A DNA stretch of 64,000 bases from Alphaproteobacteria bacterium (GTDB lineage: Bacteria; Pseudomonadota; Alphaproteobacteria; JAAEOK01): the NCBI GenBank assembly GCA_024244705.1, contig JAAEOK010000045.1, forward strand, positions 1 to 64,000, read 5' to 3'. Each line of letters begins with the position of its first letter. The stretch's first letter is position 1. The translations under genes were made by a program, and so were the position numbers. The notes below the pieces were generated by a model that made no database searches, was not told where the DNA came from, and worked only from the letters and a program-made list of their open reading frames with translations. Positions 3,261 to 54,211 of the stretch are shown piece by piece.

Positions 3261-3268
3261 GTTCACTC

Positions 3269-4069
3269 CTAACGTCCCTTGAAAACCGGGTTACGCCGTT
3301 CGACAAAAGCGCGAATACCCTCTTCAGCGTCTTCCGAACGGAGCATTTGCCGGTAGACCGGCAGGTCGCCGGTGCGCATCGTCTGAAACGACTGTTCGAT
3401 GGTGTTACCCTCGATAGCGCGCAACACCTCTTTCACTGTCTGCAGGGCGAGCGGCGCCGATTCGGCGAGTTGGTCGGCCCATTCCCGGGCCTTGTCGATC
3501 AATTCGCTGCCTGGAACAACCAAGTTGACAAGGCCATGATGGGCAGCTTCCGTCGCTGGCATCCGGCGGCCCAGGAGAAGCATCTCCATTGCCACGTTGT
3601 AGGGAATGCGTCGCGGCACGCGTTGAATGGCGCCGGCGTCGGGGACAATGCCGAGCGGCAATTCGGGCAAGGCAAATTCAGCGTGTTCGGCGGCGATGAT
3701 CAGATCGCAGGCGATCGCCAACTCCAGTCCGCCGCCGATGGCCAGTCCGTTGACTGCCGCGATAACCGGCTTGTTGAGGTCCCACCGTTCGGTGATCCCG
3801 GCAAAGCCGCCCGGAGCCTGCTCGTCCTCCCACCATTCGTCCAACTTGGCATCGCCGCGTTCGACCTCCTTTAGATCCCAGCCCGCCGAGAAGATCCGAT
3901 CGCCGGCCGCAGTCAAAATCGCGACGCGCAGTTCCGGGTCGTCGCGGAGCGTGTCGAAGGCGGCACCGAGTTGGCGGTTGGTCTCTTGACCGATGGCATT
4001 GACCTTGGGCCGATCGAGGGTGATTTCCAGAACATGGCCGCGCCGCACGACGCCTACCTCTTGCTTCAT
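3269..4069 (-). CDS. CaiD-like enoyl-CoA hydratase (carnitinyl-CoA dehydratase family)
   Basis: A 266-residue crotonase-fold protein. The blocks LEITLDRPKVNAI, ELRVAIL and FSAGWDLK are those of CaiD. The oxyanion-hole region is AIGGGLELA. Two Glu residues at 116 and 136 (GGGLEL and LPELPLG) match the CaiD/crotonase catalytic pair. Compared with CaiD and the locus B copy it carries a short Trp/acid-rich insertion (DEWWEDEQA, about residues 77-85) near the active-site entrance, suggesting a related but different acyl group. Predicted role: hydration of a trans-enoyl-CoA to the 3-hydroxy compound. ATG at 4069 follows GGAGGATC. It is divergent from the acyl-CoA dehydrogenase at 4284 across a 214-nt region with a long inverted repeat. 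Confidence 0.88.
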   Translation of the reverse strand: MKQEVGVVRRGHVLEITLDRPKVNAIGQETNRQLGAAFDTLRDDPELRVAILTAAGDRIFSAGWDLKEVERGDAKLDEWWEDEQAPGGFAGITERWDLNKPVIAAVNGLAIGGGLELAIACDLIIAAEHAEFALPELPLGIVPDAGAIQRVPRRIPYNVAMEMLLLGRRMPATEAAHHGLVNLVVPGSELIDKAREWADQLAESAPLALQTVKEVLRAIEGNTIEQSFQTMRTGDLPVYRQMLRSEDAEEGIRAFVERRNPVFKGR

Positions 4070-4158
4070 CGATCCGATCCTCCGCTGGCTTTCGGTGGTT
4101 TGTATGATCGGGGAATCCGCCTATCTCGGCATTACTGTTTCCGACAAAAACACGGTTA

Positions 4159-4206
4159 ATTCGACATGCCGGCTGGGGCGGCGAAAACCTTTAAAAGATG
4201 TCGAAT
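4159..4206. promoter_or_regulatory. Perfect 9-bp inverted repeat in the divergent crotonase/acyl-CoA dehydrogenase promoter region
   Basis: ATTCGACAT at 4159-4167 is repeated in exact inverted form as ATGTCGAAT at 4198-4206, with centres 39 bp apart (nearly four helical turns). It lies between the divergent starts at 4069 and 4284, where a regulator would be expected to bind. Widely spaced half sites suit AraC-type activators or looping, and the GlxA-type protein at 1237 is the obvious candidate. The site is read directly; its function is inferred. Confidence 0.45.
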
Positions 4207-4283
4207 AGCTACAAATCCCGTGGCGTGAAATCCCCAATCATTAGGACGCGCTATTGCCATGACAGCGAGACCGGAGGCGCGCC

Positions 4284-5444
4284 ATGGATTTTCACCTCAC
4301 CGACGAGCAGCGCATTCTCGTCGGATCCTTGCAGGCGTTCTTGGAGGACGAAATTTATCCCCATGAGGCCGAAGTCGATCGTAGCGGCGAGGTCCCAGCG
4401 GAACTTGGCGAGCAGATCACCCGTAGGGCGATTGAGATGGGATTCTATGCGGCCAATCTGCCGGAATCGGTCGGCGGTGGTGGCCTCGACAATACGAGCT
4501 TGGCCTTGTTCGAGCGCGTGCTCGGCACATGCAGTCATGCATTGCACGGTTATATCGGCAGACCGACGGAATTACTGCTGGCCTGTGAAGGCGATCAGGT
4601 AGAACGCTACCTGAGACCCTGTGTGCGTGGCGACTTACGCGAATGCTTCGCCCTCAGTGAGCCCGGTGCGGGCTCCGACATCATGTCGATGACGACCCGC
4701 GCGGTGCGGGATGGTGGCGACTTTGTGATCAACGGATCGAAGCACTTCATCAGCTGCGTCGGCGTACCTGATTTCGCCATTGTGTTCGCCGCCACCAGCG
4801 TCGAGGACACGCCGAAGGGCGAGCGCAAACGGGCAACCGCATTCCTCGTCGATCGCGGTACCAAGGGCTTCGCCCTGGAACCGGGCTACGATTGCATCAG
4901 CATTCGCGGCTATAACAACTACCGACTGACCTTCGATGACTGCCGGGTCGGTTCCGGCCAAATCCTCGGCGAGGTCGACAACGGCCTCGATCTTGCGGAA
5001 ACTTGGCTAAAGATGGGCCGGGTGTGGGTCGGAGCGACCTGCTGCGGCAAGGCCGAACGTCTGATCAATCTAGCGACCGAGTGGGCCGCGACACGCAAGC
5101 AGTTCGGCCAACCGATCGGCAAGTTTCAGGGTACATCGTTCAAGCTCGCCGACATGGCGACCGAGTTGCGGGCGGCCGATTTGCTGGTCATGAACACCGC
5201 CTGGAAGGCGGACCAAGGGGTCATGGAGCCGGCCGACGCGGCAATGGTAAAGCTTTATGGGTCGGAAATGCTTGGCCGCGTCGCGGACAATGCGGTGCAG
5301 ATATTCGGCGGAATGGGGTTGATGTCGGAATTACCGATCGAACGCATGTGGCGCGATTCCAGGCTCGAGCGCATTTGGGACGGAACGTCGGAAATCCAGC
5401 GCCATATCATCGCCCGGTCGATGCTGCGCCCGCTCGGCGGATGA
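4284..5444 (+). CDS. Acyl-CoA dehydrogenase, locus A (crotonobetainyl/butyrobetainyl-CoA type candidate)
   Basis: A 386-residue FAD acyl-CoA dehydrogenase with the full N-helical, beta and C-helical layout. Visible motifs are ALSEPGAGSDI, FVINGSKHFIS, TRKQFGQPIGKFQ and NAVQIFGGMGLM. The C-terminal RIWDGTSEIQR carries Asp366 where medium-chain enzymes have the catalytic Glu in YEGT; the paralogue at 50155 has the same change. Expected reaction: alpha,beta-desaturation of an acyl-CoA made by the synthetase encoded immediately downstream (ATGA overlap). GGAGG precedes the ATG. CaiA in the anaerobic carnitine pathway is from the same superfamily, which supports a betainyl-CoA substrate, but this is inference. 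Confidence 0.88.
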   Translation: MDFHLTDEQRILVGSLQAFLEDEIYPHEAEVDRSGEVPAELGEQITRRAIEMGFYAANLPESVGGGGLDNTSLALFERVLGTCSHALHGYIGRPTELLLACEGDQVERYLRPCVRGDLRECFALSEPGAGSDIMSMTTRAVRDGGDFVINGSKHFISCVGVPDFAIVFAATSVEDTPKGERKRATAFLVDRGTKGFALEPGYDCISIRGYNNYRLTFDDCRVGSGQILGEVDNGLDLAETWLKMGRVWVGATCCGKAERLINLATEWAATRKQFGQPIGKFQGTSFKLADMATELRAADLLVMNTAWKADQGVMEPADAAMVKLYGSEMLGRVADNAVQIFGGMGLMSELPIERMWRDSRLERIWDGTSEIQRHIIARSMLRPLGG

Positions 5445-7483
5445 CACCCGGCCAGCGCGATAATTTGCGCCGGTTGCTGGCCCCACGCCATGTTGCGTTG
5501 ATCGGCGGCGACGACGCGGATGTCGCCGCGATTCAATGTGCGGCGGCCGGTTTCAAGGGCCCGATTTGGGGTGTCAACCCACGTCGCAAGGAACTCGGTG
5601 GCCGGCCCTGTTTCGCCCGGGTCGAAGACCTTCCCGAGGCCCCCGATGCGGTTTTTCTCGCCGTACCGAGGGCCGCCGTCGGCGACATCGTCGGGGCGCT
5701 GAGCCGCGTCGGTGCCGGTGGCGTTATTTGCTACACCGCCGGCGACCTCGCCTTGGTCGGCCCCAATTGCTACGGCTTGATCAACTACGTCCACGACGCC
5801 GTTCTCTGGCCGTATGGCCATGGCGGTACTCGGGTAAACCGCGGCGTCGCTTTGGTCTCGCAGAGCGGTATGTTGGGGACCAACCTGACGATGAACCGTC
5901 GATCGGTGCCCTTCGCCTATGTGATCAGCGCCGGCAACATGGCGATGCTCGGCGTCGAGGACTATCTCGAAGTCCTAATCGAAGACCCGGCGGTCGCCGC
6001 TATCGGACTCTACCTGGAGACGCTGCGCGACATCCCGCGTTTCGCCGATATCGCGGGCCGTACCCTCGAAGCCGGCATTCCCATCGTCGCGCTCAAGGCA
6101 GGGAGCTCCGAGATCGGCGCTCGCCTCACGGTCACCCATACCGGTTCCCTCGCAGGTGCCGACGATCTCTACCAGGCATTGTTCGACCGCCTCGGTGTCA
6201 TACGCGTCGATACGCCCGTGACGCTGCTTGAAACGCTCAAGATGTTGATCGTTGCGGGTGCCCCTGCGGGTCGACGGGTGGCCGGTTTTACCTGCTCCGG
6301 CGGCGACGCGGCGATGCTGGCCGACGGCGCCGGCAAGGCAGGTATCTCATTCGACCAGCCGTCGCCGGGGGCGGCGAAGGACCTGGCGGACCGCCTGCCC
6401 AACATCGCCACCGTCTCCAACCCCCTCGATTACACGACCCCTTTGTGGGGCGACCCCGACCGCATGCCAGCGATCTTTCAGGCGCTGATCGGCGATGGCT
6501 ACGACGCGGCGCTGCTGGTCCAAGATTATCCGGCGCCGGAAATCGACACCGATCGCGACAGCTATCTCACCGACGCCCGCAGCTTCGCGGCGGCGACCCG
6601 CGCGGCCGGGATTCCGGGGGCCATCTGCAGTGACCTGCCGGAAAACATCGACCGCAAGACACGCGATATCATGGTCGAGCTCGGCGTCGCTCCACTCCAG
6701 GGTATATCCGAGGCGATGACCGCAATGGCGGGCGCCGCATTCCTTGGTGAACGGCGCGCCGTGATGGCCGCCGCCGGCGGCGCGGCTGCATTCCGCCTGC
6801 GTACACCACCATTGCCACACGGTGATCTTGAAATCCTTGACGAATGGGCCGGCAAACAGCGGTTGGCGGCCGCCGGTATAGCGGTACCGGCGGGCCGACT
6901 GGTCGGCGCCGAGGCCGCACCCGCGGCAGCTGAGGAGATTGGCTTCCCGGTTGTCGCCAAATTGGCCGACCCGCGGATGCCGCACAAGAGCGAGGCCGGC
7001 GCGGTGCGGGTCGGCCTGAACAGTCCGGCCGCCGTCGCCGAAGCCGTGGCTGCAATCGCCAACTCGGTTGCCGACTATCAGCCCGGCTTCAATTGCGACG
7101 TTTTTCTCATCGAGCGCATGATAGTCGACGCGATCGCCGAACTCCTCATCGGTATTCGCCGCGATGATGTATTCGGGCACGTCATGGTGCTGGCCAGCGG
7201 TGGCGTTCTCGTGGAACTTGTCGGTGACGCCCGGGCGCTGCTGCTTCCAATCGACCGGGACGGCATTGCCAGGGCCTTGGCGTCGCTAAAGGTCTCAGAG
7301 CTGCTCGCCGGGTACCGCGGCGGTGCCGCGGCGGACATCGATGCGGTCGTCGACGCGGTGCTGAAAGTCGCTGAATTCGCGGACACCTATCGCGACAAAC
7401 TCGAGGAACTCGACATCAACCCGTTGATGGTCCGGTGCGATGGCGTGGTGGCGGCAGACGTGCTGCTCCGGATCGCCAGGTAA
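5441..7483 (+). CDS. NDP-forming acyl-CoA synthetase (fused alpha-beta acetate-CoA ligase type), locus A, with internal 20-residue deletion
   Basis: A 680-residue protein: a CoA-binding Rossmann domain (1-130), a succinyl-CoA-ligase-like domain carrying the phosphohistidine-type loop HTGSLAG, and a C-terminal ATP-grasp domain (about 460-680, with GFPVVAKLADP and ELDINPLMV). It makes an acyl-CoA with ATP giving ADP. Start ATG at 5441 overlaps the stop of the acyl-CoA dehydrogenase (ATGA), so translation is coupled. Relative to the paralogue at 51321 it lacks 20 residues (copy B residues 101-120), exactly in frame, between GAGGVICYTA and GDLALVGPN. In SucD the equivalent stretch follows the CoA-binding loop. 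It may have altered specificity or be impaired. Long upstream in-frame extensions read through the previous gene and are rejected. Confidence 0.88.
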   Translation: MTPGQRDNLRRLLAPRHVALIGGDDADVAAIQCAAAGFKGPIWGVNPRRKELGGRPCFARVEDLPEAPDAVFLAVPRAAVGDIVGALSRVGAGGVICYTAGDLALVGPNCYGLINYVHDAVLWPYGHGGTRVNRGVALVSQSGMLGTNLTMNRRSVPFAYVISAGNMAMLGVEDYLEVLIEDPAVAAIGLYLETLRDIPRFADIAGRTLEAGIPIVALKAGSSEIGARLTVTHTGSLAGADDLYQALFDRLGVIRVDTPVTLLETLKMLIVAGAPAGRRVAGFTCSGGDAAMLADGAGKAGISFDQPSPGAAKDLADRLPNIATVSNPLDYTTPLWGDPDRMPAIFQALIGDGYDAALLVQDYPAPEIDTDRDSYLTDARSFAAATRAAGIPGAICSDLPENIDRKTRDIMVELGVAPLQGISEAMTAMAGAAFLGERRAVMAAAGGAAAFRLRTPPLPHGDLEILDEWAGKQRLAAAGIAVPAGRLVGAEAAPAAAEEIGFPVVAKLADPRMPHKSEAGAVRVGLNSPAAVAEAVAAIANSVADYQPGFNCDVFLIERMIVDAIAELLIGIRRDDVFGHVMVLASGGVLVELVGDARALLLPIDRDGIARALASLKVSELLAGYRGGAAADIDAVVDAVLKVAEFADTYRDKLEELDINPLMVRCDGVVAADVLLRIAR

Positions 7484-29532: not shown

Positions 29533-31849
<2,317 letters not shown>

Positions 31850-39881: not shown

Positions 39882-42305
39882 TCAGCTGCGTGGGCGCGAA
39901 TTCCGGGGATCATAAGCGGGTTCGGCGAGAATCCGCGCCGGACGGCGTTCGCCGAGAATCATGACTTCGAGCTCGGCACCGGGTTCGGCCATGGCGGGAT
40001 CCAGATAGGCGAAGGCGAGAGTCTCGCCGACATGATGGCCATAGCCGCCGGAACTGACGGCGCCGATCTTGTGGCCGTTCTTGAAGACCGCCTCCGAACC
40101 GTGGCAATCGGCATCTTCCGTGTCGATGGCCAGATAGGTACAGATCCAAGGCAGGTCGCCATTCATGCTCCGCTCCGTCGCGTTTCGGCCGATAAAATCC
40201 TTATCGAGTTTGACGAAGCGCATGACATCGGCTTCGGGCAACGTTACCTCGGTGGTCAATTCGTGGGCGCCCTTGAAGCCCTTCTCCAGGCGCATCGAAT
40301 TCATCGCATAGGAGCCATAGTTGGCGATACCAAGCGAAGAACCGGCCTGCCACAGCGCATCATAGACCGCCGGCAACCGGTCCATCGGCATGTGGAGTTC
40401 CCAGCCGAGTTCCCCGGAATAGGACATTCGCAGCGCGCGCAACGGAGCGCCGGCAATCTCGACCGTCTGGGCGGTGAGCCACGGGAAGCTTTCATTATCC
40501 AGCGGCGCTTGACAGACCCGTCGCAGGACATCGCGGGCGAGCGGTCCCTGTAACGCAAGCGCGCCATAGATCTCGGACGCGTTGACGATCGATATCTCTT
40601 CATCGTCGTGCCTGTGCTGGTTGAGCCAATCGAAGACACGAAGCTCCGAAAAGGCGGCAAACACGAAATAGAATCGATCGTCGCCGATTTTGATCACTGT
40701 TGTTTCGGCTTCGATGGTGCCTTTTTCATTGAGGATATGGGTGAGCACCAAGCGTCCTGCCTTGACTGGCGTTCGATTGGCGATGACACGATCGACGAAA
40801 GTCCCAGCATCCGGCCCCGAGACCTCGATCTTCGCGAACGAGGATAGGTCCATAACACCGAGTCGATTGCGTACGGCATCGATCTCGCGAGCCACGCAAT
40901 CGTGCCACACCGTGCGTCGGAACGAATGCATATCGCGCTGCGGAACGCCATCATGGGCGAACCAGCGCGGTCGCTCCCAGCCGAATATTTCCTCGTAAAC
41001 CGCCCCTTCCGCCAGTAGTCGGTCATAGAGCGGGCTGGTCTTGACCGGCCGCCCCTCGGTTCGGTTGAGGCCCGGGAACGGAATCTCGTGGCGAAGCAGA
41101 TAGTCTTCCTTCGCCTTTGCGACCGCATAGCCGGCGTCGGCAAAATCGCCGTAGCGACGCGGGTCGAATTCGCGCATGTTGATCTCCGCCGCCCCATGGA
41201 CCATCCATTGCGCCAGGAACTTGCCGGCACCGGGCCCCCAGGCGATGCCGATCTGGGATCCGCAGCAGCACCAGAAATCGCAAAGACCGGGAGCCGGGCC
41301 GAGCAGCATATTCCCGTCCGGCGGGTGGGTGATGGCGCCGTGAACCGCCCGCTTGATACCCTTGTCGGCGAGCACCGGCATGCGTTCGAGCGCATTTTCG
41401 AGCCATGGCGAGATGCGGTCATAGTCGGGCTCGAACAGTTCGTGTTCCGCCTCCCATGGCGTCCCTTCGAGCCACACCGTGTTCGGATTGGCTTTCTCGT
41501 AAATACCGATCAGCCCCGACTTCTGCTCCATGCGGACATAGCCCGAAACCATGCGATCGTCGCGGACGACGGGCAGTTCATGATCAAGGCCTTCGAATTC
41601 GGTAACCGTGTCGGTAACCAGGTAGTGGTGGGTCATGCAGGTAATCGGCAGGTTCAGTCCGACCCAGGCGCCGATCTGCTTGGCGTAGGTTCCGCCGGCG
41701 TTGACGACGATCTCGCAGGCAATTTCGCCCTGTTCGGTCGAGACACGCCATCCGCCGTCGGGCCGCTTGGCGATATTCGTGACGCGATTGTGACGGATGA
41801 TCTTTGCGCCGAGATTGCGCGCACCGCGCGCCAGAGCATGGGTCGCGCCGGCCGGGTCGACATGACCGTCGGCCGGTGTGTGTAGCGCAGCGCGGACGCC
41901 CTCCAGGTTATAGAATGGGTGGAGCGCTCGAATCTCGTCGACGCCAATAATCTCCATCGGATGATCGAGTGTCGCGCCGACGCTCATCGTATGTTTCAGC
42001 CAATCGAGTTCGTCCGCGGTATAGGCCAGACGCAGCGATCCGCAGTCATGAAAGCTGACCGATTGCTCGGTTTCCTCTTCGATGCGTTTATAAAGTTCGA
42101 TGCCGTAACCGGCCATCTTGCCGAGGGCGTAGCTCGAGGTCGAATGCGTGATCTGGCCGGCGGCATGCCAGGTCGAGCCTGAGGTCAGCTCGGCCTTTTC
42201 GATCAAGACGCAGTCGTGCCACCCTTCCTTGGCCAGGTGGTAGAGCAGACTGCAGCCCATGATTCCGCCGCCGACGATGACCACCCTGGCATGGCTTGGG
42301 ACCAT
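39882..42305 (-). CDS. Dimethylglycine/sarcosine dehydrogenase-type FAD enzyme with GcvT domains
   Basis: An 807-residue two-part flavoprotein. N-terminal DAO-type domain (1-400) with VVIVGGGIMG and SGSTWHAAGQ, where His is the usual covalent FAD attachment site. C-terminal GcvT-like folate domains (about 430-800, with GVMDLSSFAKIEVSGPDA, ALQGPLARDVL and SYSGELGWELHMP). Such enzymes remove N-methyl groups and pass the carbon to tetrahydrofolate or release formaldehyde. I choose ATG 42305 (GAGG at 8-nt spacing); a TTG at 42356 would add 17 residues. First gene of the leftward operon and divergent from the RpiR regulator. Confidence 0.88.
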   Translation of the reverse strand: MVPSHARVVIVGGGIMGCSLLYHLAKEGWHDCVLIEKAELTSGSTWHAAGQITHSTSSYALGKMAGYGIELYKRIEEETEQSVSFHDCGSLRLAYTADELDWLKHTMSVGATLDHPMEIIGVDEIRALHPFYNLEGVRAALHTPADGHVDPAGATHALARGARNLGAKIIRHNRVTNIAKRPDGGWRVSTEQGEIACEIVVNAGGTYAKQIGAWVGLNLPITCMTHHYLVTDTVTEFEGLDHELPVVRDDRMVSGYVRMEQKSGLIGIYEKANPNTVWLEGTPWEAEHELFEPDYDRISPWLENALERMPVLADKGIKRAVHGAITHPPDGNMLLGPAPGLCDFWCCCGSQIGIAWGPGAGKFLAQWMVHGAAEINMREFDPRRYGDFADAGYAVAKAKEDYLLRHEIPFPGLNRTEGRPVKTSPLYDRLLAEGAVYEEIFGWERPRWFAHDGVPQRDMHSFRRTVWHDCVAREIDAVRNRLGVMDLSSFAKIEVSGPDAGTFVDRVIANRTPVKAGRLVLTHILNEKGTIEAETTVIKIGDDRFYFVFAAFSELRVFDWLNQHRHDDEEISIVNASEIYGALALQGPLARDVLRRVCQAPLDNESFPWLTAQTVEIAGAPLRALRMSYSGELGWELHMPMDRLPAVYDALWQAGSSLGIANYGSYAMNSMRLEKGFKGAHELTTEVTLPEADVMRFVKLDKDFIGRNATERSMNGDLPWICTYLAIDTEDADCHGSEAVFKNGHKIGAVSSGGYGHHVGETLAFAYLDPAMAEPGAELEVMILGERRPARILAEPAYDPRNSRPRS

Positions 42306-42342
42306 AGGATCTGCCTCGACCCAGTTCCGAATTCTCTGGACA

Positions 42343-42375
42343 GGTTTATGGGACAATCATACAATAGTCAACAAT
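42343..42375. promoter_or_regulatory. ACAAT direct repeats and weak promoter between DMGDH-type and RpiR genes
   Basis: Three copies of ACAAT start at 42353, 42361 and 42371 (spacing 8 and 10). On the complement, TTGACT (42371-42366) is followed 17 nt later by TAAACC (42348-42343), a weak promoter reading toward the DMGDH-type gene. An RpiR protein bound to the repeats would overlap both promoters. No Shine-Dalgarno site precedes the RpiR ATG at 42374. Confidence 0.35.
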
Positions 42376-43273
42376 GAATGATACGGATGTACCATACACC
42401 GGTGACCCTCATCTGACCGCACCGGTTCTTGGTCGGATCGTCGATGGTCTGTCGGCGATGAGCCCGCAACTGCGCAAAGCCGCGCAGTACGTCCTCGACA
42501 ATCCGACCGATGTGGGTGTGAGCTCGATCCGCGAAATCGCGATTGCGGCCCAAGTCAAGCCGAATACGCTGGTTCGCATGGCGCGCGCCGTCGGTTTTGA
42601 TGGTTACGACGACATGCGCGCGCCGTTCCGCGAGGCGTTGAGGACGGGCCGGGAATCGTTTCCTGACCGGGCTCGCTGGCTGCAGTCGATAGCGAGAGGG
42701 GAGCGGTTTGGTGGCCTCATGCGCGATATGGCGGCGTCCGTGCTGGCCAATGTCGAGGCGTTGTACGCCGGTATCGACGCCGCCGCGATGAAGGGAGCCG
42801 CCGATCGCATCGTCGCCGCGCGGCATACCTATGTGCTGGGACTCGGAGTCTCTCATGCACTGGCTCACAACATCGCCTATCTAGCCCACATGGCGCTTGA
42901 CAGCGTTACGGCTATCCCCCGCGATGGCAGCCTGCCGGTCGACGATCTCGTCACCGCCGGTCGGCACGACGTCTTGATCGCCATGACCTTTGCACCATAC
43001 CGAAGCGAAGTCGTATCAGCCGTCGAGATGGCGAAAGAACAAGGCATGGCGATCATTGCCGTGACCGATAGCCTGGGGTCCCCGATCGCGCTTGGCGCCG
43101 ATCATGCATTCGTGGTCCCGACCGAAACGCCACAATTCTTCACCTCCACGGTCGCCGCCGCGGCTTTGCTCGAAACCCTGGTCGCATTCGTCGTCGCGGA
43201 GGCCGGTACCGGCGCCGTTCGCAACATCGAGCGGATGCACGACCGCCGCCAACGGCTCGGCGTGTACTATTAG
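42374..43273 (+). CDS. MurR/RpiR-family transcriptional regulator
   Basis: A 299-residue regulator: N-terminal RpiR helix-turn-helix (about 15-90, ALSPQ-like MSPQLRKAAQYVLDNP, then IREIAIAAQVKPNTLVRMARAVGF) and a SIS domain (about 135-270, YVLGLGVSHALAH, with SAVEMAKEQGMAIIAVTDS). SIS domains usually sense phosphosugars, but in betaine and amino-sugar clusters other ligands occur. It lies 15 nt upstream of the Rieske oxygenase gene and is divergent from the DMGDH operon, so it probably controls both. Translation may be leaderless. Confidence 0.87.
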   Translation: MNDTDVPYTGDPHLTAPVLGRIVDGLSAMSPQLRKAAQYVLDNPTDVGVSSIREIAIAAQVKPNTLVRMARAVGFDGYDDMRAPFREALRTGRESFPDRARWLQSIARGERFGGLMRDMAASVLANVEALYAGIDAAAMKGAADRIVAARHTYVLGLGVSHALAHNIAYLAHMALDSVTAIPRDGSLPVDDLVTAGRHDVLIAMTFAPYRSEVVSAVEMAKEQGMAIIAVTDSLGSPIALGADHAFVVPTETPQFFTSTVAAAALLETLVAFVVAEAGTGAVRNIERMHDRRQRLGVYY

Positions 43274-43288
43274 CGTTGGGACTGGATT

Positions 43289-44383
43289 ATGAACCGCAAG
43301 GCAGGCGCCGCGAAGACCGATGGGCTGATCCGCGGACTCGAACCGGCCTACTACACGGATCCGGCGATTTTCGAACGCGAGAGAGAGCGTATCTTCTATC
43401 GCACCTGGCAGCACGCGTGCCATGTCAGCGACGTCGAATCCTCCGGCGACTATGTGGTCTTCGAAATCGCCGACCAAAGCCTCTTCGTTATTCGCGACGG
43501 TGAGGGTGGTCTGCGCTGCTTCTATAATGTCTGCCAGCATCGCGCCCACCATTTGTTGCAGGGCGCCGGCACCTGCCGCAAGATCGTTTGCCCCTATCAT
43601 GCCTGGGCCTATGAGCTCGACGGCCGTCTTGTCGGTGCTCCCAATTCAAAAGCCGTACCGGGTTTTGATGTTAGTGAGATATGTCTATCCGAAGTCGGGC
43701 TGGAGGTGTTTTGCGGATTTGTCTTCGTCAATCTCGATCGAAACGCCGCGCCCATGGATATGTGGTATCCGGGTGCGCGCGCAGCATTGCAGGCACGGGT
43801 CCCCAAGGTCGACCAATACAGCCCCATATGGACACATGAGGCGGAGGAGCTCTGCAACTGGAAAGTCGCGGTTGAAAACTACAACGAGTGCTATCACTGC
43901 AAGCACGTGCACCGCGCCTTCACCACCGGCGTTATCGATCCGTTATCGGTCGATATCGTCCCGGATGGGTACACCCTGAGACATAGCGGCCGCGCCGCCG
44001 TTGGCGACTCGGTTGCCTACGAATTCGACGATGCGGCCTATGGAGCGATCTATTTCTGGCCCACCATGTCGGTGCAGATCTACCCTGGCAGGGTCGTTAA
44101 CACGTACTATTGGAGAACAAATACATACGATTTAACAATAGTATATAGGAGTTGGTTAACGCTAAATGGAAACTCGGATCCTGAAACAATGGGGATCGCG
44201 GAAATCGATCGCGACACGACTTTCGCCGAGGACATACCGCTGGTCAATTCGGTCCAGCGCGGCTTGGCCAGCCGCGGTTACCGGCCGGGTCCCCTGATCA
44301 TCGATCCGGCCGGTGGGGTGGCCAGCGAACTGTCGGTGCACACTTTTCACAACTGGGTCCGCGAGGCTTTGGACGAGGCCTAA
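43289..44383 (+). CDS. Rieske [2Fe-2S] oxygenase alpha subunit (CntA/GbcA/Stc2-like betaine demethylase)
   Basis: A 364-residue aromatic-ring-hydroxylating-type oxygenase. Rieske ligands Cys82, His84, Cys101 and His104. The catalytic domain has NYNECYHCKHVH with bridging Glu200 and iron ligands His203 and His208, matching Glu205, His208 and His213 of carnitine monooxygenase CntA. The C-terminus EDIPLVNSVQRGLASRGYR also mirrors CntA (EDLRLVESVQ). Glu rather than Asp at the bridge is a hallmark of the CntA/betaine-demethylase branch. No reductase subunit is adjacent. The stretch encoding about residues 270-301 (44098-44190) is strikingly AT-rich with rare codons. Likely removes a methyl group or trimethylamine from a quaternary ammonium acid. 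Confidence 0.88.
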   Translation: MNRKAGAAKTDGLIRGLEPAYYTDPAIFERERERIFYRTWQHACHVSDVESSGDYVVFEIADQSLFVIRDGEGGLRCFYNVCQHRAHHLLQGAGTCRKIVCPYHAWAYELDGRLVGAPNSKAVPGFDVSEICLSEVGLEVFCGFVFVNLDRNAAPMDMWYPGARAALQARVPKVDQYSPIWTHEAEELCNWKVAVENYNECYHCKHVHRAFTTGVIDPLSVDIVPDGYTLRHSGRAAVGDSVAYEFDDAAYGAIYFWPTMSVQIYPGRVVNTYYWRTNTYDLTIVYRSWLTLNGNSDPETMGIAEIDRDTTFAEDIPLVNSVQRGLASRGYRPGPLIIDPAGGVASELSVHTFHNWVREALDEA

Positions 44384-45797: not shown

Positions 45798-46769
45798 CTA
45801 AGGCCGCCGTGCCGCCGTCGGCGAAAGGTTGAAACGGGCCCGGAAGGCGCGGGCCAAAGCCGAGGCGGAATTGAACCCGCAGCGCACGGCGATTTCGGCC
45901 ACCGTCCATTTGGTTTGACGCAACATGCGGTGAGCGAGCCGAAGCCTGAGATCCAGGTAATATCGCATCGGCGTTGTCATGAGATATTTCTTGAACAGCC
46001 GCTCCAGGTCACGCTGATTGGCGTCGACCCGCCTCGCGATGTTCGCCACGGTGACCGGTTCCTCGATCTGCGATTCCATGAGCTCGATTGCCCTGGCTAG
46101 TGGCGGGCTGCTGATCTCGAGCTGTTGGATGGACACACTGTGCTGAGGATCGGTCGACGGCATGTCATGGCCGTAGATGAGCTGGCCCGCCGTGTCGAGT
46201 GCCAGGCGGAGGCCGTGCTGCACGCGTACCAAATGGAGCATGAGATCGAGACTCGTCGTCCCGCCGCCGGCCGTAAACCGATTGCGGTCGATCACGTAGC
46301 GATCGGGCAACACCTCGACATTCGGGAATGCCTCGCCGAAGGTGGTGAGATCTTCCCAATGTATGGTCGCCTTGTAGCCATCGAGCAGACCGGCTCTCGC
46401 CAGGATATGGCTGCCGGTGTCGAGGCCGCCGAATTGCGTGCCGCGGCGCGACAGGTGCCGAAGTATTCCAATCAGGCGAGGCGTACACGCGTGGTCCGGG
46501 TTGAAGCTCGCGATGACGAACAATACTGGTGGACATGCCGCGGTGGTCAGCGGTCCGTCGACCGCAATCCGAAATCCGCTGCTGGCCGCAACGCTTTCGC
46601 CTTCCGTTGTGTACAAGCGCCAGCGATAAAGCGCTTGATCCGCCATCCGGTTGGTTGCCCGCAAGGGCTCGAGCGTCGACGCAAAGCAGATATTGGAGAA
46701 TTCCGGAACCAGCAAGAATCCGATTTCTTGGAAGGGATTGCTTGGTGTGCCATCGAATAGATGGGTCAT
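45798..46769 (-). CDS. GlxA/CdhR-like AraC-family transcriptional regulator, locus B
   Basis: A 323-residue regulator with the DJ-1/PfpI-like N-terminal domain (GGLDTGSHILARAGLLDGYKATIHW) and a C-terminal AraC domain (VDANQRDLERLFKKYL, CGFNSASALARAFRARF). Divergent from the cdhC-like gene across 123 nt. This mirrors CdhR beside cdhC in Pseudomonas, so it is the likely carnitine/dehydrocarnitine-responsive activator of locus B. Confidence 0.88.
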   Translation of the reverse strand: MTHLFDGTPSNPFQEIGFLLVPEFSNICFASTLEPLRATNRMADQALYRWRLYTTEGESVAASSGFRIAVDGPLTTAACPPVLFVIASFNPDHACTPRLIGILRHLSRRGTQFGGLDTGSHILARAGLLDGYKATIHWEDLTTFGEAFPNVEVLPDRYVIDRNRFTAGGGTTSLDLMLHLVRVQHGLRLALDTAGQLIYGHDMPSTDPQHSVSIQQLEISSPPLARAIELMESQIEEPVTVANIARRVDANQRDLERLFKKYLMTTPMRYYLDLRLRLAHRMLRQTKWTVAEIAVRCGFNSASALARAFRARFNLSPTAARRP

Positions 46770-46892
46770 TTTGCGAAAACCGTATAAGTGCCGCCCAAAA
46801 CTGTATCAAATTACCACCGGATCGTCGGTACCATATCCAAGAAATACGAGCCAGCGCCGACTTGCGCTGCGGCCGTTTTGCGAGGAGACGAT

Positions 46893-47780
46893 ATGAACTG
46901 GGATGTCTTCATTACCTGCGCCGTCACCGGTGCCGGCGATACGTTCGGCAAACACCCCGATCTTCCGGTAACCCCGGCACAGATCGCATCGGCGGCGCTC
47001 GAGGCGGCAAGTGCCGGCGCGGCCATCGCGCATTGCCATGTGCGTGATCCGGCGACCGGGCAGGGAAGTCGAGACGTCGCGCTCTACCGGGAAGTCGTCG
47101 AGCGCATTCGAGAAAGCGATACGGATGTGGTGATCAACTTGACTGCCGGCATGGGCGGCGACCTCTATGTCGGCACCGAAGGGGTCAAGGATACGCCGGC
47201 GGATGGAACCGACCTTGTGGGCCCAATCGAGCGCCTAGCCCATATCGAGGAATTGACGCCGGAGATTTGCACGTTGGATTGCGGGAGTCTCAATTTCGGC
47301 GATGGCAGCATGGTCTATATTTCCCCGCCGTCATATCTTCGGAAGGGCGCTCAGCGGATTCGGGAATTGGGCGTCAAACCGGAGCTTGAAATCTTCGATA
47401 CCGGTCATCTGTGGTTTGTCAATCAGATGGTCTCGGAGGGTCTCGTCGATGCTCCGCCGATGATTCAGCTTTGCCTCGGGATCCCCTATGGTGCACCGGC
47501 GGACACGACGACAATGAAATCGATGGTCGACAATCTGCCGACCGATTGCGTGTGGAGCGGTTTCGGCATCGGCCGCATGCAGATGCCGATGGTGGCCCAG
47601 GCCGCGCTGCTTGGCGGCAATGTCCGTGTCGGCCTCGAAGACAATCTGTATCTCGAACGCGGTGTGTTCGCATCAAACGGTCAGCTCGTCGAAAAGGCGC
47701 AGGCAATTCTCGAACGCATGGGTGCGAACGTGCTGACACCGGATCAGGCGCGTCAGAAGCTGGGCTTGCGCAAGACCTGA
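46893..47780 (+). CDS. cdhC: 3-dehydrocarnitine cleavage enzyme (BKACE, DUF849)
   Basis: A 295-residue BKACE-family zinc enzyme very close to Pseudomonas CdhC as I recall it: [21 protein letters not shown] (zinc His pair), [36 protein letters not shown] and [10 protein letters not shown]. It cleaves 3-dehydrocarnitine with acetyl-CoA to betainyl-CoA and acetoacetate. ATG 46893 follows GAGGAGA; the upstream 35-codon extension is rejected. First gene of locus B operon, with a regulator divergent and dehydrogenase-thioesterase downstream. Best substrate assignment in the window. Confidence 0.9.
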
Positions 47781-47850
47781 CCAGGATTGGGCACGGGAAT
47801 GCAGTCGCTCGATAGCGGGTCCGGCAGCTCGGCGCAGACAAACCGTCGGA

Positions 47851-49368
47851 ATGGGGGTGTGGATGACCGCGAATAGGGTCGAGAAAGTCGCCGTCGTCGG
47901 TACCGGCGTCATCGGGGCCGGTTGGGCGGCGCGGCTGTTGCATTTCGGTATCGATGTGGTCGCCGCGGATCCGGCGCCGGGCGCAGAAGATCGGCTGCGG
48001 GCAAGTGTCGCCAACGCCGAGCCGGCGCTCGCGAAACTAACCCTGGTTCCGATCGGCAAGAAGGGCACGCTAGAATTCGTAAATGACCTGAAAGACGCAG
48101 TAGAAGATGCTGATCTTATTCAAGAAAGTGCCTCCGAAAATGAGGCCCTCAAACGCGATCTCTTAGCCCAGGTCAGTCGTGCGGCGCGGCCGGACGCGAT
48201 AATCGCGTCGAGCTCGTCGGGCCTTTTGCCGAGCCGTATTCAAGCCGATTGCGTCAATCCGGCGCGGGTCCTTATCGGACACCCTTTCAATCCGGTTTAC
48301 CTACTTCCGCTTGTCGAGTTGGTCGGTGGTGAACAGACCTCCGGACAGACCATCGAGCAGGCGACCGAGTTCTATCGCGCAATCGGCATGCATCCGCTCC
48401 ATGTTCGCAACGAGATCGAAGGCTATATTTCGGACCGTCTGCAAGAGGCTCTGTGGCGGGAGGCGCTTCACCTCGTCAACGACGGTGTCGCGACCACCGA
48501 CGAGATCGACCAGGCGGTCATCTACGGTCCGGGCCTACGCTGGGCGTTCATGGGTACATGTCTGACATTTCACCTTGCGGGTGGCGAGGAGGGAATGCGC
48601 CACATGTTGCGGCAATTTGGACCGGCGCTGAAACTGCCGTGGACGAAGCTCGAAGCGCCCGACCTGACGGATCGGCTGGTCGATCGTATGGTCGAGCAGA
48701 CCCAAGAGCAGGCTGAGTCGAAGTCGATCCGCGAACTCGAACAACTGCGCGACGATTGCCTCGTCGCCATAATGCAGTCACTGCGAGAGTTCGACTATGC
48801 GTCGGGACGGACCTTGAACGCCCAGGATCGGCGGCTCTATCGGGGCATGAATTTTCGTCGATTCGATGCAAAAGACGATTTCTCGGCGCCGTTGCGCCTG
48901 CATGAAGCCTTCGTTCGTCCTGAATGGGTGGATTATAACGGCCACATGACCGAATCGCGATACCTGCAGATCTTCGGTGATGCCTCTGACGCCCTGTTCC
49001 GATTTGTCGGCGTCGACGACGACTATCACGCCCGGGGGTTTTCCTACTATACGGTCGAAACCCATATCATGAACCTGCGCGAGGTGGCGGCCAACGAGCC
49101 GCTCTACGTCACCACCCAAATCTTGGGCGTCGACGAGAAGCGGCTCCATTTTTTCCATTCCATGCATCATGCCGACAGCGATGAAAATTTGGCGACGGCG
49201 GAGCAAATGGTTCTCCATGTCGACATGGAGGCCGGCAAGACCTGTCCGGCGCCGGCCGATGTCCTCGAGAAACTGCAAGCGATTTTTGAAGGCCATCGTG
49301 ATATCGCGCCGCCCTCGGCAGCGGGCCGCTCGGTCGGCGCGGCAAAGACACGGACGTTGAGCGCATGA
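47851..49368 (+). CDS. Bifunctional L-carnitine dehydrogenase / betainyl-CoA thioesterase fusion
   Basis: A 505-residue fusion. Residues about 8-320: NAD-binding VVGTGVIGAGW, catalytic His in GHPFNPVYLLPLVE and the C-terminal 3-hydroxyacyl dehydrogenase domain. Residues about 345-485: a hotdog thioesterase domain (EAFVRPEWVDYNGHMTESRY with the catalytic-type Asp-Tyr-Asn-Gly-His). In Pseudomonas the two functions are separate genes; fused forms occur in rhizobia and relatives. It makes 3-dehydrocarnitine and later frees glycine betaine from betainyl-CoA, the steps either side of CdhC. ATG 47851 or 47863 is possible. A short AT-richer patch (48061-48120) lies in the dehydrogenase domain. ATGA overlap with the SDR. 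Confidence 0.9.
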   Translation: MGVWMTANRVEKVAVVGTGVIGAGWAARLLHFGIDVVAADPAPGAEDRLRASVANAEPALAKLTLVPIGKKGTLEFVNDLKDAVEDADLIQESASENEALKRDLLAQVSRAARPDAIIASSSSGLLPSRIQADCVNPARVLIGHPFNPVYLLPLVELVGGEQTSGQTIEQATEFYRAIGMHPLHVRNEIEGYISDRLQEALWREALHLVNDGVATTDEIDQAVIYGPGLRWAFMGTCLTFHLAGGEEGMRHMLRQFGPALKLPWTKLEAPDLTDRLVDRMVEQTQEQAESKSIRELEQLRDDCLVAIMQSLREFDYASGRTLNAQDRRLYRGMNFRRFDAKDDFSAPLRLHEAFVRPEWVDYNGHMTESRYLQIFGDASDALFRFVGVDDDYHARGFSYYTVETHIMNLREVAANEPLYVTTQILGVDEKRLHFFHSMHHADSDENLATAEQMVLHVDMEAGKTCPAPADVLEKLQAIFEGHRDIAPPSAAGRSVGAAKTRTLSA

Positions 49369-50138
49369 CCGCGTCAGCCGCGCGGGTGCTGGTCACCGCG
49401 GGCGCGTCGGGTATCGGACGGGCCATTTCAGAGGCGTTTCTGGCTGAGGGCGCGTTGGTGCATATATGCGATATCGACGAAAAGGTTCTGCGTGAGTTTT
49501 GCGGCCAACACAACCGACTCGAAGGGTCGGTAGTCGATGTCGCAAACGCCGATGACGTGGACACGCTACTCGACGATTTCCTTGTTCGCCAGGGCGGTAT
49601 CGATGTCCTCGTCAATAATGCTGGTGTCGCCGGCCCGACGGCACCGGTCGAAGCGATTTCCTACGCCGATTGGCGGCATTGCCTGGCGGTTAACTTGGAC
49701 GCGGCCTATTTGTGCGCACGCCGCGCCGCGCCGAGCATGAAGGCGCAGGGCGCGGGATCGATTGTCAACATTTCTTCGACCGCCGGTTTCATGGGCTATC
49801 CTTTGCGGACACCGTATGCCGCGGCCAAATGGGCGTTGATCGGGCTCACGAAGTCCTTGGCCATGGAACTCGGACCCTATGGTATTCGCGTAAACGCGGT
49901 TTGTCCGGGACCAGTTCAGGGCGACCGCATGCAAAGAATTATTGCGTCCGAGGCCGAGGCCACCGGCAAGGATGTAGAGGAGGTTGCGGCTGCGTATGTG
50001 CGGAGCACGTCGTTGCGCACTTTCATCGAGGCCGCAGATATCGCGGCGACGGTATCGTTTCTTTGTTCACCGGCCGGAGCGAAGATCACGGGACAGGCGG
50101 TTCCCGTCGACGGCCACACTGAAAGCCTTACGGGATAG
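49365..50138 (+). CDS. SDR-family dehydrogenase, locus B
   Basis: A 257-residue short-chain dehydrogenase: VTAGASGIGR, NNAGVAGP, catalytic ISSTAG and YAAAK, and an ITGQAVPVDGG-like end. Its start overlaps the upstream stop (ATGA). SDRs recur in carnitine loci and could handle the D-enantiomer or another hydroxyacyl intermediate; sequence does not decide. The glycine motif AGASGIG is standard for NAD(P) binding. Confidence 0.86.
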   Translation: MTASAARVLVTAGASGIGRAISEAFLAEGALVHICDIDEKVLREFCGQHNRLEGSVVDVANADDVDTLLDDFLVRQGGIDVLVNNAGVAGPTAPVEAISYADWRHCLAVNLDAAYLCARRAAPSMKAQGAGSIVNISSTAGFMGYPLRTPYAAAKWALIGLTKSLAMELGPYGIRVNAVCPGPVQGDRMQRIIASEAEATGKDVEEVAAAYVRSTSLRTFIEAADIAATVSFLCSPAGAKITGQAVPVDGHTESLTG

Positions 50139-50154
50139 GACGAAGGGGCTGATC

Positions 50155-51315
50155 ATGGATTTCGGTCTCACCGAAGAACAGCAAATGGTGGTCGATACGG
50201 TTCGGGGTTTTGTCGAACGGGAGCTCTACCCGCTCGAAGCCGAGGTCGAGCTGAGCGGCCGGGTGGCCAATGAAATCGGCCGTGACATACAGCGAAAGGT
50301 TCTCGGCCTGGGGTTCTACGCGGCGAATATACCTCAGGAATTCGGCGGCGGCGGGCTGGATCATCTGACCTTTACACTCCTCGAGCGGGAACTGGGCCGC
50401 GGATCGATGGCGCTGAGCACGTTTTTCGGCCGGCCCTCGAACATTCTTTGTGCCTGCAGTGACGAGCAAAAGGAACGCTACCTCTACCCAGCGGTGCGGG
50501 GCGAAATGATGGATTGCTTGGCAATGACAGAGCCGGGGGCGGGTTCAGACATCCGCTCGATGAAGACGGTGGCGCGACGAGACGGTGACGATTTCGTCAT
50601 AAACGGGTCCAAGCACTTCATCAGCCACGCCGATATCGCCGATTTTGCCATCGTCTTCGTCGCAACGGGCAGCGAAGACACGCCGCACGGCAATAAGCAG
50701 CAGATCACATGTTTCCTGATCGACCGGGGCACGCCCGGCTTCGAAGTGAGGGATGGCTACAAGAGTGTTTCTCATCGCGGCTATCACAATTGCATTCTCA
50801 CGTTTGACGATTGCCGGGTGCCGGCGACCCAGGTACTCGGCGGGGTAGGGCAGGGCTTCCAGTTGATGAATACCTGGCTCTACGCCACCCGGTTGACGGT
50901 CGCGGCGATGAGTGTCGGACGGGCGCGCCGCGTTTTCGATTTGTGCGCCGAATGGTGTGCGACACGAAAGCAATTCGGCCAATCAATTGGCAAGTTTCAA
51001 GGTACGTCGTTCAAACTCGCCGATATGGCGACGGAAATCGACGCAGCCGACTATCTGAACCTGGGCGCGGCGTGGATGCTCGACAATGGACGCGACGCCA
51101 ACCGAGCCATCGCGCAGGCAAAACTGTTCGCGACCGAAATGCTCGCGCGGGCGACAGATAATGCCGTTCAAATCTTCGGCGGAATGGGTTTGATGGACGA
51201 ACTACCAATCGAGCGATTTTGGCGTGATGCTCGGGTCGAACGTATCTGGGATGGCACCAGTGAGATCCAGCGCCACATCATATCCCGCGACATCCTGCGC
51301 CCGCTCGAAGATTAA
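50155..51315 (+). CDS. Acyl-CoA dehydrogenase, locus B
   Basis: A 386-residue acyl-CoA dehydrogenase, the same length as its locus A paralogue and alignable without gaps by eye: AMTEPGAGSDIRS, FVINGSKHFISH, TRKQFGQSIGKFQ, AVQIFGGMGLMDELP. It too has Asp366 (RIWDGTSEIQR) at the position of the medium-chain catalytic Glu. Proposed to desaturate gamma-butyrobetainyl-CoA or a similar cationic acyl-CoA to the crotonyl form used by CaiD. ATG 50155; the longer upstream frame lies inside the SDR gene. Confidence 0.88.
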   Translation: MDFGLTEEQQMVVDTVRGFVERELYPLEAEVELSGRVANEIGRDIQRKVLGLGFYAANIPQEFGGGGLDHLTFTLLERELGRGSMALSTFFGRPSNILCACSDEQKERYLYPAVRGEMMDCLAMTEPGAGSDIRSMKTVARRDGDDFVINGSKHFISHADIADFAIVFVATGSEDTPHGNKQQITCFLIDRGTPGFEVRDGYKSVSHRGYHNCILTFDDCRVPATQVLGGVGQGFQLMNTWLYATRLTVAAMSVGRARRVFDLCAEWCATRKQFGQSIGKFQGTSFKLADMATEIDAADYLNLGAAWMLDNGRDANRAIAQAKLFATEMLARATDNAVQIFGGMGLMDELPIERFWRDARVERIWDGTSEIQRHIISRDILRPLED

Positions 51316-51320
51316 CGGCG

Positions 51321-53417
51321 ATGGCGCGAGCCGCGACCCGACGTAACCTGAAACGGCTGCTTTCGCCGAAGAGCATTGCGGTCGTTGGCGGCGATCTCGC
51401 CGCAAGGGTCATCCGTTTGACCCGCGACTTTGGCTTCGCAGGTCCCATTCACGCTGTGCACCCGACGCGGAACGAACTTACCGGGGTTCCCTGCGTGCGA
51501 TCGATTGCGGACCTCCCATCCGCCCCCGATGCAGTTTTCCTCGGCGTGTCCCGAGAGGCAACGCTAGCGAGCGTCAAAGAATTGTCGGCGCTCGGTGCGG
51601 GCGGAGCGGTTTGCTATGCCTCGGGCTTTTCCGAAGTTTCCGATGGGGACCGCTTGGAACGCGATTTGATCGCCAGCGCCGGCGATATGGCGCTGATCGG
51701 TCCGAACTGCCACGGTGTTATCAACGGGCTCGATGGGATCGCGCTGTGGCCCGACGAACACGGTATCGCGCCGACAACTGCGGGCGCTGCCATCATCACG
51801 CAGAGCGGCAATATCGGTATCACGCTGACCATGCAGGAGCGGGGCCTCGACATCGCCTACATGCTCTCGGTGGGCAATCAAGCCGTGCTCAAGGTCCACG
51901 ACTACCTCGATGTGCTCGCCGATGATCCGCGGATTGGCGCGATCGGTCTCTATATCGAGGCCGTAGAGGAGGTCGGCGATTTCGCCGAGGCCGTTCTGAA
52001 ATGTGCCCGCAGGCGACTTCCTATCGTGGCGATCAAGGCCGGACGTTCGGAGGCGGCGGTCCAGACGGCGCTGAGCCACACGTCATCGCTCGCCGGGTCC
52101 GACGCGTTGGTCGATGCATTCTTTCACCGTTACGGAATCGTCCGCGTCGACAGTCTCGCCGAACTCGTTGAAACCCTGAAATTCCTGTCGCTGGCGGGAC
52201 CGATTGACGGTCCACGCATCGCATCATTGAGTTGTTCGGGCGGTGATGCGGCCATGCTCGCCGACTTGGCACATCCACTTGGGCTGGATCTGGCACCGCT
52301 CCCGGACAGAACCCGTGGCCGTTTGACCGATCTATTGGGCGCACGGGTCGCGATTTCCAATCCCCTCGACTATCACACCTACATTTGGGGCGACCGGGAG
52401 CGTTTGACGGCGTGCTTCGGCGCCGTTTGCGAGGCCGGCTACGATGCGACAATGCTGGTCCATGACTATCCGCGACCGGATGCCAACGATGTCGCGGCAT
52501 GGGACGTCACGACCGAGGCAATGATTGCCGCGCACCGCACCCATGGCGGCGTCGGGATTGTCGTGTCCTCGCTTCCCGAGGCCATGCCCGCCCATGCGCG
52601 TCGAATGCTGAACGAAGCCGGCCTCACCGCGATGCAGGGTCTGCCGGAATGCCTGAAGGCGGTCGCGGCGTCAGTCCGCCTCGGCCGGGCATGGCGACGG
52701 TTCGACTGTCATCCGCCGTCCATGCCAATTGACAGTCCGCCGCTTCCGCTCGACGGCAAACCTGTGGTGGCGACGGAGCCGGCGGCCAAGGCGTTGTTTA
52801 CGGCTCATGGGATACGGGTACCCGAGGGGCGCCGGGTGGCGATTTCCCAGGCATCGGCGGCGGCCGCCGAAATCGGATTTCCGGTTGTCGTCAAGACCGC
52901 GGCCGCGGTCGGTCATAAGACCGAATTGGGTGGCGTCGCGCTGGATCTCGAAGACACCGTTGCGGTACATGCCGCTGCCGTTCGAATGTCATCCCTGAGC
53001 CCGGAGGTTTATGTCGAGCGCATGTTGCCATCGCCCCTCGTCGAGTTGATCGTCGGCGTGAAATCCGATCGCCAATTCGGACCCGTTCTGGTCGTGGGGG
53101 AGGGAGGCATCCGGGTCGAGCTTCAGGACGACAACCGGTTCATATTGTTACCGACCGACCCAGCGGAAATCCGCGACGCGCTTCAGGCTTTGCGGATATG
53201 GCCGATACTTGAGGGTTACCGGGGTGCCGCCGGTGCCGATATTGATTCGCTCGTCGACGCAATCTCTCGGTTGGCCACCCTCGCGATCGCCCAACGCAAG
53301 TCCATTTTCGAGATCGAAATAAACCCGCTGATGGTTTATCCAGCGCCGGATGGCGCCATCGCAGCCGATGCCTTGGTGTGCACGAGCGAATCACTCAACA
53401 TCGAAGAAGTCGGGTAG
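51321..53417 (+). CDS. NDP-forming acyl-CoA synthetase (fused alpha-beta), locus B
   Basis: A 698-residue acetate-CoA-ligase-type enzyme: CoA-binding domain (1-150, intact CYASGFSEVSDGD region), phosphohistidine loop SHTSSLAGS, SCSGGDAAML, and a C-terminal ATP-grasp domain (GFPVVVKTAAAVGHKTE, FEIEINPLMV). It starts 5 nt after the acyl-CoA dehydrogenase stop. It replaces the CaiB/CaiC CoA transferase/ligase logic of enterobacteria as the activation step. Compared with it, the locus A paralogue has lost residues 101-120. Confidence 0.88.
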   Translation: MARAATRRNLKRLLSPKSIAVVGGDLAARVIRLTRDFGFAGPIHAVHPTRNELTGVPCVRSIADLPSAPDAVFLGVSREATLASVKELSALGAGGAVCYASGFSEVSDGDRLERDLIASAGDMALIGPNCHGVINGLDGIALWPDEHGIAPTTAGAAIITQSGNIGITLTMQERGLDIAYMLSVGNQAVLKVHDYLDVLADDPRIGAIGLYIEAVEEVGDFAEAVLKCARRRLPIVAIKAGRSEAAVQTALSHTSSLAGSDALVDAFFHRYGIVRVDSLAELVETLKFLSLAGPIDGPRIASLSCSGGDAAMLADLAHPLGLDLAPLPDRTRGRLTDLLGARVAISNPLDYHTYIWGDRERLTACFGAVCEAGYDATMLVHDYPRPDANDVAAWDVTTEAMIAAHRTHGGVGIVVSSLPEAMPAHARRMLNEAGLTAMQGLPECLKAVAASVRLGRAWRRFDCHPPSMPIDSPPLPLDGKPVVATEPAAKALFTAHGIRVPEGRRVAISQASAAAAEIGFPVVVKTAAAVGHKTELGGVALDLEDTVAVHAAAVRMSSLSPEVYVERMLPSPLVELIVGVKSDRQFGPVLVVGEGGIRVELQDDNRFILLPTDPAEIRDALQALRIWPILEGYRGAAGADIDSLVDAISRLATLAIAQRKSIFEIEINPLMVYPAPDGAIAADALVCTSESLNIEEVG

Positions 53418-53428
53418 GGAGGGTTAAG

Positions 53429-54211
53429 ATGAGCGAACCGGTGCGAACCTCCAGAAATGGACAGATCCTGGAGGTCGTTCTCGATCGTCCGAAAGCCAAT
53501 GCTATCGACGTCGCGACCAGTCGCGAGCTGGGCTCGGTGTTTGAAAAATTCCTCGCCGCGCCCGAACTACGGGTTGCCATTCTGACTGGCGGCGGCGACA
53601 GGTTTTTCAGCGCCGGCTGGGATCTTATCAGCGCAAGCGAAGGCGAAGCCGCGGATTCGGATTATGGAATCGGTGGCTTCGGCGGTATCACCGAGCTTAA
53701 GGATCGGACCAAGCCCATCATTGCCGCGGTCAACGGTATGGCCGTCGGAGGCGGGTTCGAATTGGTGCTTGCCGCCGATTTCGTAATCGCCGCCGAGGAT
53801 GCGCAGTTCTTTCTGCCCGAAGTGCAACGCGGTCTGGTTGCCGATGCGGCTTCCTTTCGGTTGCCGAAGCGTCTGCCGCGGGCGCTCGCGATGGAGTTGC
53901 TGCTTACCGGGCGCCGGATGAGCGCCGCTGAAGCCTGCGACCGTGGCCTGATCAACCAAGTCGTGCCCAAGGCGGCGGTCATGGAAACGGCACGTTCGCT
54001 CGCCCAAGAGATCCTGAAGGCGGCGCCGTTATCGATCGCCGCCGTCATGGAAATCGTCCGCGAGACCGAGGCGATGCCGTTGGAGGCGTGCTACGCGGCG
54101 ATGCGCAACGGAAAATGGCAACACTACGAGACTATGCTCAAAAGCGACGACGCCGTCGAGGGGCCGCGCGCCTTCGCGGAAAAACGCGACCCGGTTTGGA
54201 CCGGAAAATGA
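53429..54211 (+). CDS. caiD: Carnitinyl-CoA dehydratase (crotonobetainyl-CoA hydratase)
   Basis: A 260-residue crotonase-fold enzyme that follows Escherichia coli CaiD almost throughout: LEVVLDRPKANAID, FFSAGWDLISASEGEA, GFGGITEL, AVGGGFELVLAADFV, TGRRMSAAEA, and the ending FAEKRDPVWTGK. Catalytic Glu111 and Glu131 fall at the same numbers as in CaiD. It hydrates crotonobetainyl-CoA to L-carnitinyl-CoA. ATG 53429 follows GGGAGGG. Last gene of locus B operon; 11 nt after the synthetase. The strongest single indication that locus B works on trimethylammonium acyl-CoAs. Confidence 0.92.
   Translation: MSEPVRTSRNGQILEVVLDRPKANAIDVATSRELGSVFEKFLAAPELRVAILTGGGDRFFSAGWDLISASEGEAADSDYGIGGFGGITELKDRTKPIIAAVNGMAVGGGFELVLAADFVIAAEDAQFFLPEVQRGLVADAASFRLPKRLPRALAMELLLTGRRMSAAEACDRGLINQVVPKAAVMETARSLAQEILKAAPLSIAAVMEIVRETEAMPLEACYAAMRNGKWQHYETMLKSDDAVEGPRAFAEKRDPVWTGK

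Follow-up and report, generated by a model that had tools for sequence, protein, structure and literature searches.

An alphaproteobacterial operon proposed to degrade gamma-butyrobetaine to glycine betaine through CoA thioesters, with a fused thioesterase as candidate for carnitine release

A cluster of carnitine and acyl-CoA genes on contig JAAEOK010000045.1 of an alphaproteobacterium (the window is the 64,000-nucleotide stretch that was analysed) raises two questions: whether it encodes a route from gamma-butyrobetaine (GBB) to glycine betaine, and how carnitine would be freed from CoA along the way. The first-pass annotation of this cluster, locus B (45798-54211), named seven proteins in order across this span, and profile matches and synteny agree with all of them. 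The seven genes had been taken as one operon; their order and adjacency hold, but the regulator is divergent, and the operon proper consists of six plus-strand genes (46893-54211). The regulator (45798-46769, minus strand) is a CdhR/GbdR-type AraC/GATase1-like protein with a Pfam HTH_18 domain that scores 279.6 bits against NCBIfam GbdR, below the cutoff of 480. The plus-strand genes encode a BKACE (46893-47780; Pfam PF05853, 335 bits), an L-carnitine 3-dehydrogenase fused to a hot-dog thioesterase (47851-49368), a FabG-like SDR oxidoreductase (49365-50138), an acyl-CoA dehydrogenase (ACAD; 50155-51315; Pfam ACAD domains) proposed to act on gamma-butyrobetainyl-CoA, an NDP-forming acyl-CoA synthetase of the BcoAB type (51321-53417; CoA_binding_2, Succ_CoA_lig and ATP-grasp_5 domains) and a CaiD-like crotonobetainyl-CoA hydratase (53429-54211). 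The genes of the operon follow one another closely, with 70 bp, a 4-bp overlap, and 16, 5 and 11 bp between them. The most likely starts are ATG 46893 for the BKACE (preceded by GAGGAG, and in place of GTG 46788), 50155 for the ACAD and 53429 for CaiD. A promoter scan returned no sigma-70-like site.

The same arrangement recurs in other bacteria. In a plasmid collection it was found, with the SDR absent and an ABC importer following, in the soil bacterium Sinorhizobium meliloti and on many Rhizobium plasmids, among them those of R. phaseoli, R. ruizarguesonis and Rhizobium sp. BT04, and Kiloniella also carries the regulator, BKACE, fused dehydrogenase-thioesterase, ACAD, synthetase and CaiD in this order. 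In Rhizobium, S. meliloti and Kiloniella alike, the operon has an orthologue of the regulator divergent from it. Because the same gene set in the same order recurs in distant genomes, the composition of locus B is not a matter of chance. A search with only the synthetase yielded 80 loci, several of them cut by contig ends. CaiD was present in 76, the ACAD-synthetase-CaiD trio in 70, and the trio together with carnitine dehydrogenase and BKACE in 40; the loci come from Actinobacteria and from Alpha-, Beta- and Gammaproteobacteria. A strong carnitine dehydrogenase match was obtained in 43 of the 372 sampled genomes of the class, and in the set searched this genome alone represented its family and order. 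The operon had been described as unusual, a view that these occurrences do not support: the pathway is already known and widespread, and the window holds a new copy with an SDR added, not a new pathway.

The S. meliloti GBB/carnitine cluster (BcoAB; SM2011_c01638) has the gene order of the window, including the fusion of the dehydrogenase to the thioesterase, and the features of its pathway are present in the window, where synthetase, ACAD and CaiD adjoin carnitine dehydrogenase, thioesterase and BKACE. The window differs in having the SDR between the fusion and the ACAD; no importer was found beside the window operon, unlike in the rhizobia. Its proteins are 45-72% identical to those of S. 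meliloti (38% for the regulator). A 2019 study (Bazire et al., J Bacteriol 201:e00772-18) is reported to have characterised carnitine metabolism in S. meliloti. The first-pass statement that aerobic degradation was known only through the dioxygenase BBOX or from carnitine onwards is contradicted by S. meliloti and also by strain HK4 (Lonza), which aerobically makes L-carnitine from GBB by a beta-oxidation-like route and then degrades it further (PMC2131755); the likeness of the window to HK4 is one of route. With E. coli caiTABCDE the window shares the CaiD hydratase, a CaiA-type dehydrogenase and CoA-thioester intermediates, but it has an NDP-forming synthetase instead of CaiB/CaiC and is assumed to run in the oxidative direction; no CaiT, CaiB, CaiC or CaiE gene was found beside the operon. 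The CdhR-controlled Pseudomonas cdh operon resembles it in an AraC-type regulator divergent from carnitine dehydrogenase, BKACE and thioesterase genes, but starts at carnitine and has no GBB-activation module.

The operon very probably corresponds, as its orthologue, to the S. meliloti cluster for degradation of GBB via carnitine to glycine betaine, and the CoA-thioester chemistry first read from it is very probably right, given that orthology, the activity of BcoAB and the close match of the hydratase to E. coli CaiD. Gene content and order, conserved residues, synteny and the thioesterase phylogeny were observed directly; from them we infer all the substrates and the way in which the pathway runs in this organism. 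The NDP-forming synthetase would convert GBB with ATP to gamma-butyrobetainyl-CoA, the ACAD would desaturate this to crotonobetainyl-CoA, and CaiD would hydrate the latter to L-carnitinyl-CoA. Release of L-carnitine would then fall to the thioesterase domain of the fusion, and oxidation of L-carnitine to 3-dehydrocarnitine to its dehydrogenase domain. The BKACE would combine 3-dehydrocarnitine and acetyl-CoA into betainyl-CoA and acetoacetate, and the same fused thioesterase domain would hydrolyse betainyl-CoA to glycine betaine. The 2019 work of Bazire and co-workers reportedly assigned five enzymes to seven steps from GBB to glycine betaine in S. meliloti; this would match the gene set of the window if the fusion protein takes three steps. 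PMC12482172, with reference to Bazire 2019, credits the S. meliloti 3HCDH protein with both carnitine dehydrogenase activity and conversion of betainyl-CoA to betaine.

The release of carnitine from carnitinyl-CoA, for which the first-pass annotation saw no obvious enzyme, is best explained by the thioesterase domain fused to the carnitine dehydrogenase, a good candidate for this step. The fused dehydrogenase is the strongest single assignment in the operon (NF005716, 620 bits against a cutoff of 592). Its dehydrogenase part covers residues ~10-314 and its thioesterase part residues ~351-497 (about 48901-49341), with a 4HBT_2 match of 108 bits at 355-475. Many loci carry two separate thioesterases, one adjoining the carnitine dehydrogenase and one adjoining the ACAD. 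A thioesterase tree of 126 sequences was built by a quick search and rooted at the midpoint; its central split has support near 94, and some of its branches are long. In this tree the ACAD-adjoining thioesterases form one clade (51 rows, SH-aLRT 97), and those adjoining the carnitine dehydrogenase group apart from it with the P. putida structure 2hlj, which we take to be PP_0301, a betainyl-CoA thioesterase. The dehydrogenase-fused domains, that of the window included, adjoin the ACAD-side clade; the window domain thus falls with the thioesterases of the GBB module, the proposed carnitinyl-CoA-releasing group, and away from the CdhB/PP_0301 type. Full 20-kb windows from actinobacteria (L029, L043, L044, L066, L072 and L087 among them) contain a thioesterase and the trio with no carnitine dehydrogenase or BKACE match, and because the two occur together in this setting, carnitinyl-CoA is the likely substrate of the ACAD-side clade. 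That the fused domain acts on both carnitinyl-CoA and betainyl-CoA would be the simplest account of the window operon. A separate, dedicated thioesterase elsewhere in the genome was also considered: the lone 4HBT_2 homologue (C75:110765-111229, 44% identical to the fused domain) is unlikely to serve the operon because it lies near metH-like and UvrD-like genes and away from carnitine genes.

Alternatively, the synthetase might run backwards on carnitinyl-CoA, freeing carnitine and recovering ATP and CoA, so that a single enzyme would both attach CoA to GBB and take it off carnitine, similar to the E. coli CoA transferase CaiB. NDP-forming synthetases are generally reversible, and clusters of the locus A type described below carry a synthetase with no adjacent thioesterase. 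This reading is nevertheless unlikely, as most loci with the module also have a thioesterase of a separate clade, including loci in which betainyl-CoA would not be expected, and reversal would be unneeded if the fused domain accepts carnitinyl-CoA.

It counts against the GBB route that none of the synthetase, ACAD and CaiD received a curated assignment above cutoff. The ACAD is 70-72% identical to the corresponding operon gene of Rhizobium and S. meliloti and 30% identical to E. coli CaiA, and it scores 182 bits against the CaiA model NF002885 (cutoff 540); by these values it is of the rhizobial ACAD type and not CaiA. The hydratase is 57% identical to E. coli CaiD over its full length, and the glutamates of its FELVLAAD and FLPEV segments align with those of the E. 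coli enzyme; with 345 bits against NF002936 (curated cutoff 500), it is strictly to be termed CaiD-like. The synthetase is 45% identical to its S. meliloti orthologue and has the phosphohistidine segment LSHTSSLAG. Its motif NPLDYHTYIWGD is common to the window, S. meliloti and Rhizobium. As DYHTYIWG had served among the patterns used for searching, the recurrence of the motif in the first 80 loci is a biased observation, although loci retrieved with the whole protein have it too. With GBB, ATP and CoA as substrates, BcoAB of S. meliloti formed GBB-CoA in vitro, and the product was confirmed by mass spectrometry (PMC8364193). As a BcoAB orthologue with a common motif, the window synthetase is proposed to be a GBB:CoA ligase.

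The closest solved relative of the synthetase is DddX (PDB 7cm9), an ATP-dependent DMSP lyase that forms DMSP-CoA. DddX shares the fused NDP-forming synthetase architecture and acts on an onium acid, in keeping with the proposed substrate, but it is remote (231 bits) and goes on to cleave DMSP-CoA. A likely 4-residue insertion (NPLD-IWGK versus NPLDYHTYIWGD) makes it ambiguous where DddX Trp391 falls on the window synthetase, and the cation-pi residue of the synthetase is therefore left without claim. The nearest structure being a DMSP enzyme, and CaiD and ACAD scoring below their equivalog cutoffs, the acyl-CoA module could be imagined to serve some other short omega-onium acid, such as delta-valerobetaine or a DMSP-like compound, and merely to share an operon with carnitine degradation. 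This is improbable in view of the identity of the hydratase to E. coli CaiD, the tight synteny of the module with carnitine dehydrogenase and BKACE, and the activation of GBB by the S. meliloti ligase.

The SDR had been listed within the operon, correctly, and had been given no step; its context now makes it a candidate D-carnitine dehydrogenase. Orthologues 47-51% identical to it adjoin the fused carnitine dehydrogenase in several loci (L154, L156, L157, L159, L161, L179 and L180, some of which are short windows) that showed no GBB module, and because of this the SDR was assigned to the carnitine module. Membership in the GBB module was rejected, since the orthologues track the carnitine module. 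D-carnitine dehydrogenase is listed as an activity in PMC2131755, and the SDR may be such an enzyme, most likely providing a side entry for D-carnitine. That the SDR instead oxidises carnitinyl-CoA, bypassing free carnitine to give a product cleaved by a thiolase elsewhere, would fit its place in the operon and the lack of a release enzyme in the first reading, but is very unlikely because its orthologues accompany carnitine dehydrogenase in loci where CaiD, ACAD and synthetase were not seen, the S. meliloti and Rhizobium operons have no SDR, and the BKACE substrate is a free keto acid.

A paralogous cluster at the contig end, locus A (170-7483), did not figure in the earlier annotation of locus B. 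Its proteins are 36-66% identical to their locus B counterparts, and it has no thioesterase. It comprises a BKACE (170-1054, minus strand; 66% to the locus B copy), an AraC regulator (1111-2322, plus; 36%), a carnitine-dehydrogenase-like 3HCDH protein without thioesterase (2319-3266, minus; 305.8 bits against a cutoff of 414), a CaiD-like hydratase (3269-4069, minus; 48% to locus B and 52% to E. coli CaiD), an ACAD (4284-5444, plus; 59%) and an NDP-forming synthetase (5441-7483, plus; 42%) with the motif NPLDYTTPLWGD. The synthetase lacks, in frame, about 22 amino acids of the CoA-binding region that all relatives compared have kept, owing to either an in-frame deletion of 66 bp or an assembly error. 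The locus A type is also present in genomes G162, G337 and G302, and in G302 a B-type cluster lies ~15 kb from it on the same contig. Synthetases of the locus A type group in a clade of their own (4 rows, support 99), which has the motif NPLDYTTP[LI]WGD, compared with NPLDYHT[YF][IV]WG in the B type. With rather low probability, locus A might be a second conserved type of cluster for betaine-CoA degradation without a thioesterase of its own; its synthetase clade would then take a different trimethylammonium or similar acid, and it may release the hydroxy acid by working in reverse.

Elsewhere in the genome no genuine GBB dioxygenase was found. A BBOX match at C73:191408-193185 (L185:8409-10186) is TmpA, with 578 bits to TmpA (above cutoff) against 442 to BBOX, and the gene after it is TmpB-like; a second dioxygenase match is TMLD-like and below cutoff. 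Because the only above-cutoff BBOX match is TmpA, no dioxygenase route was found. The TmpA and TmpB-like pair likely degrades 2-trimethylaminoethylphosphonate, another source of glycine betaine. For the further metabolism of betaine, no true GbcA scored above cutoff in the genome (best 290 of 670, at C32), and the Rieske oxygenase gene that the window carries at 43289 is only distantly GbcA-like. It belongs to a group 2-6 kb upstream of locus B (39882-44383) that also encodes a DAO/GCV_T protein resembling dimethylglycine/sarcosine dehydrogenase and an RpiR-type regulator; onward demethylation of betaine is a possible role of these genes. A glutathione-dependent formaldehyde dehydrogenase at 30458-31849 (TIGR02818, 632 bits, above cutoff) fits methyl-group oxidation.

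GBB is a common plant and animal metabolite, and locus B extends a known route for its use to a bacterium that stands alone in its order within the set searched. It offers a testable answer to how carnitine would be released from CoA, namely by the thioesterase fused to carnitine dehydrogenase. Locus A, its paralogue in the window, raises the question of a second substrate for this chemistry.
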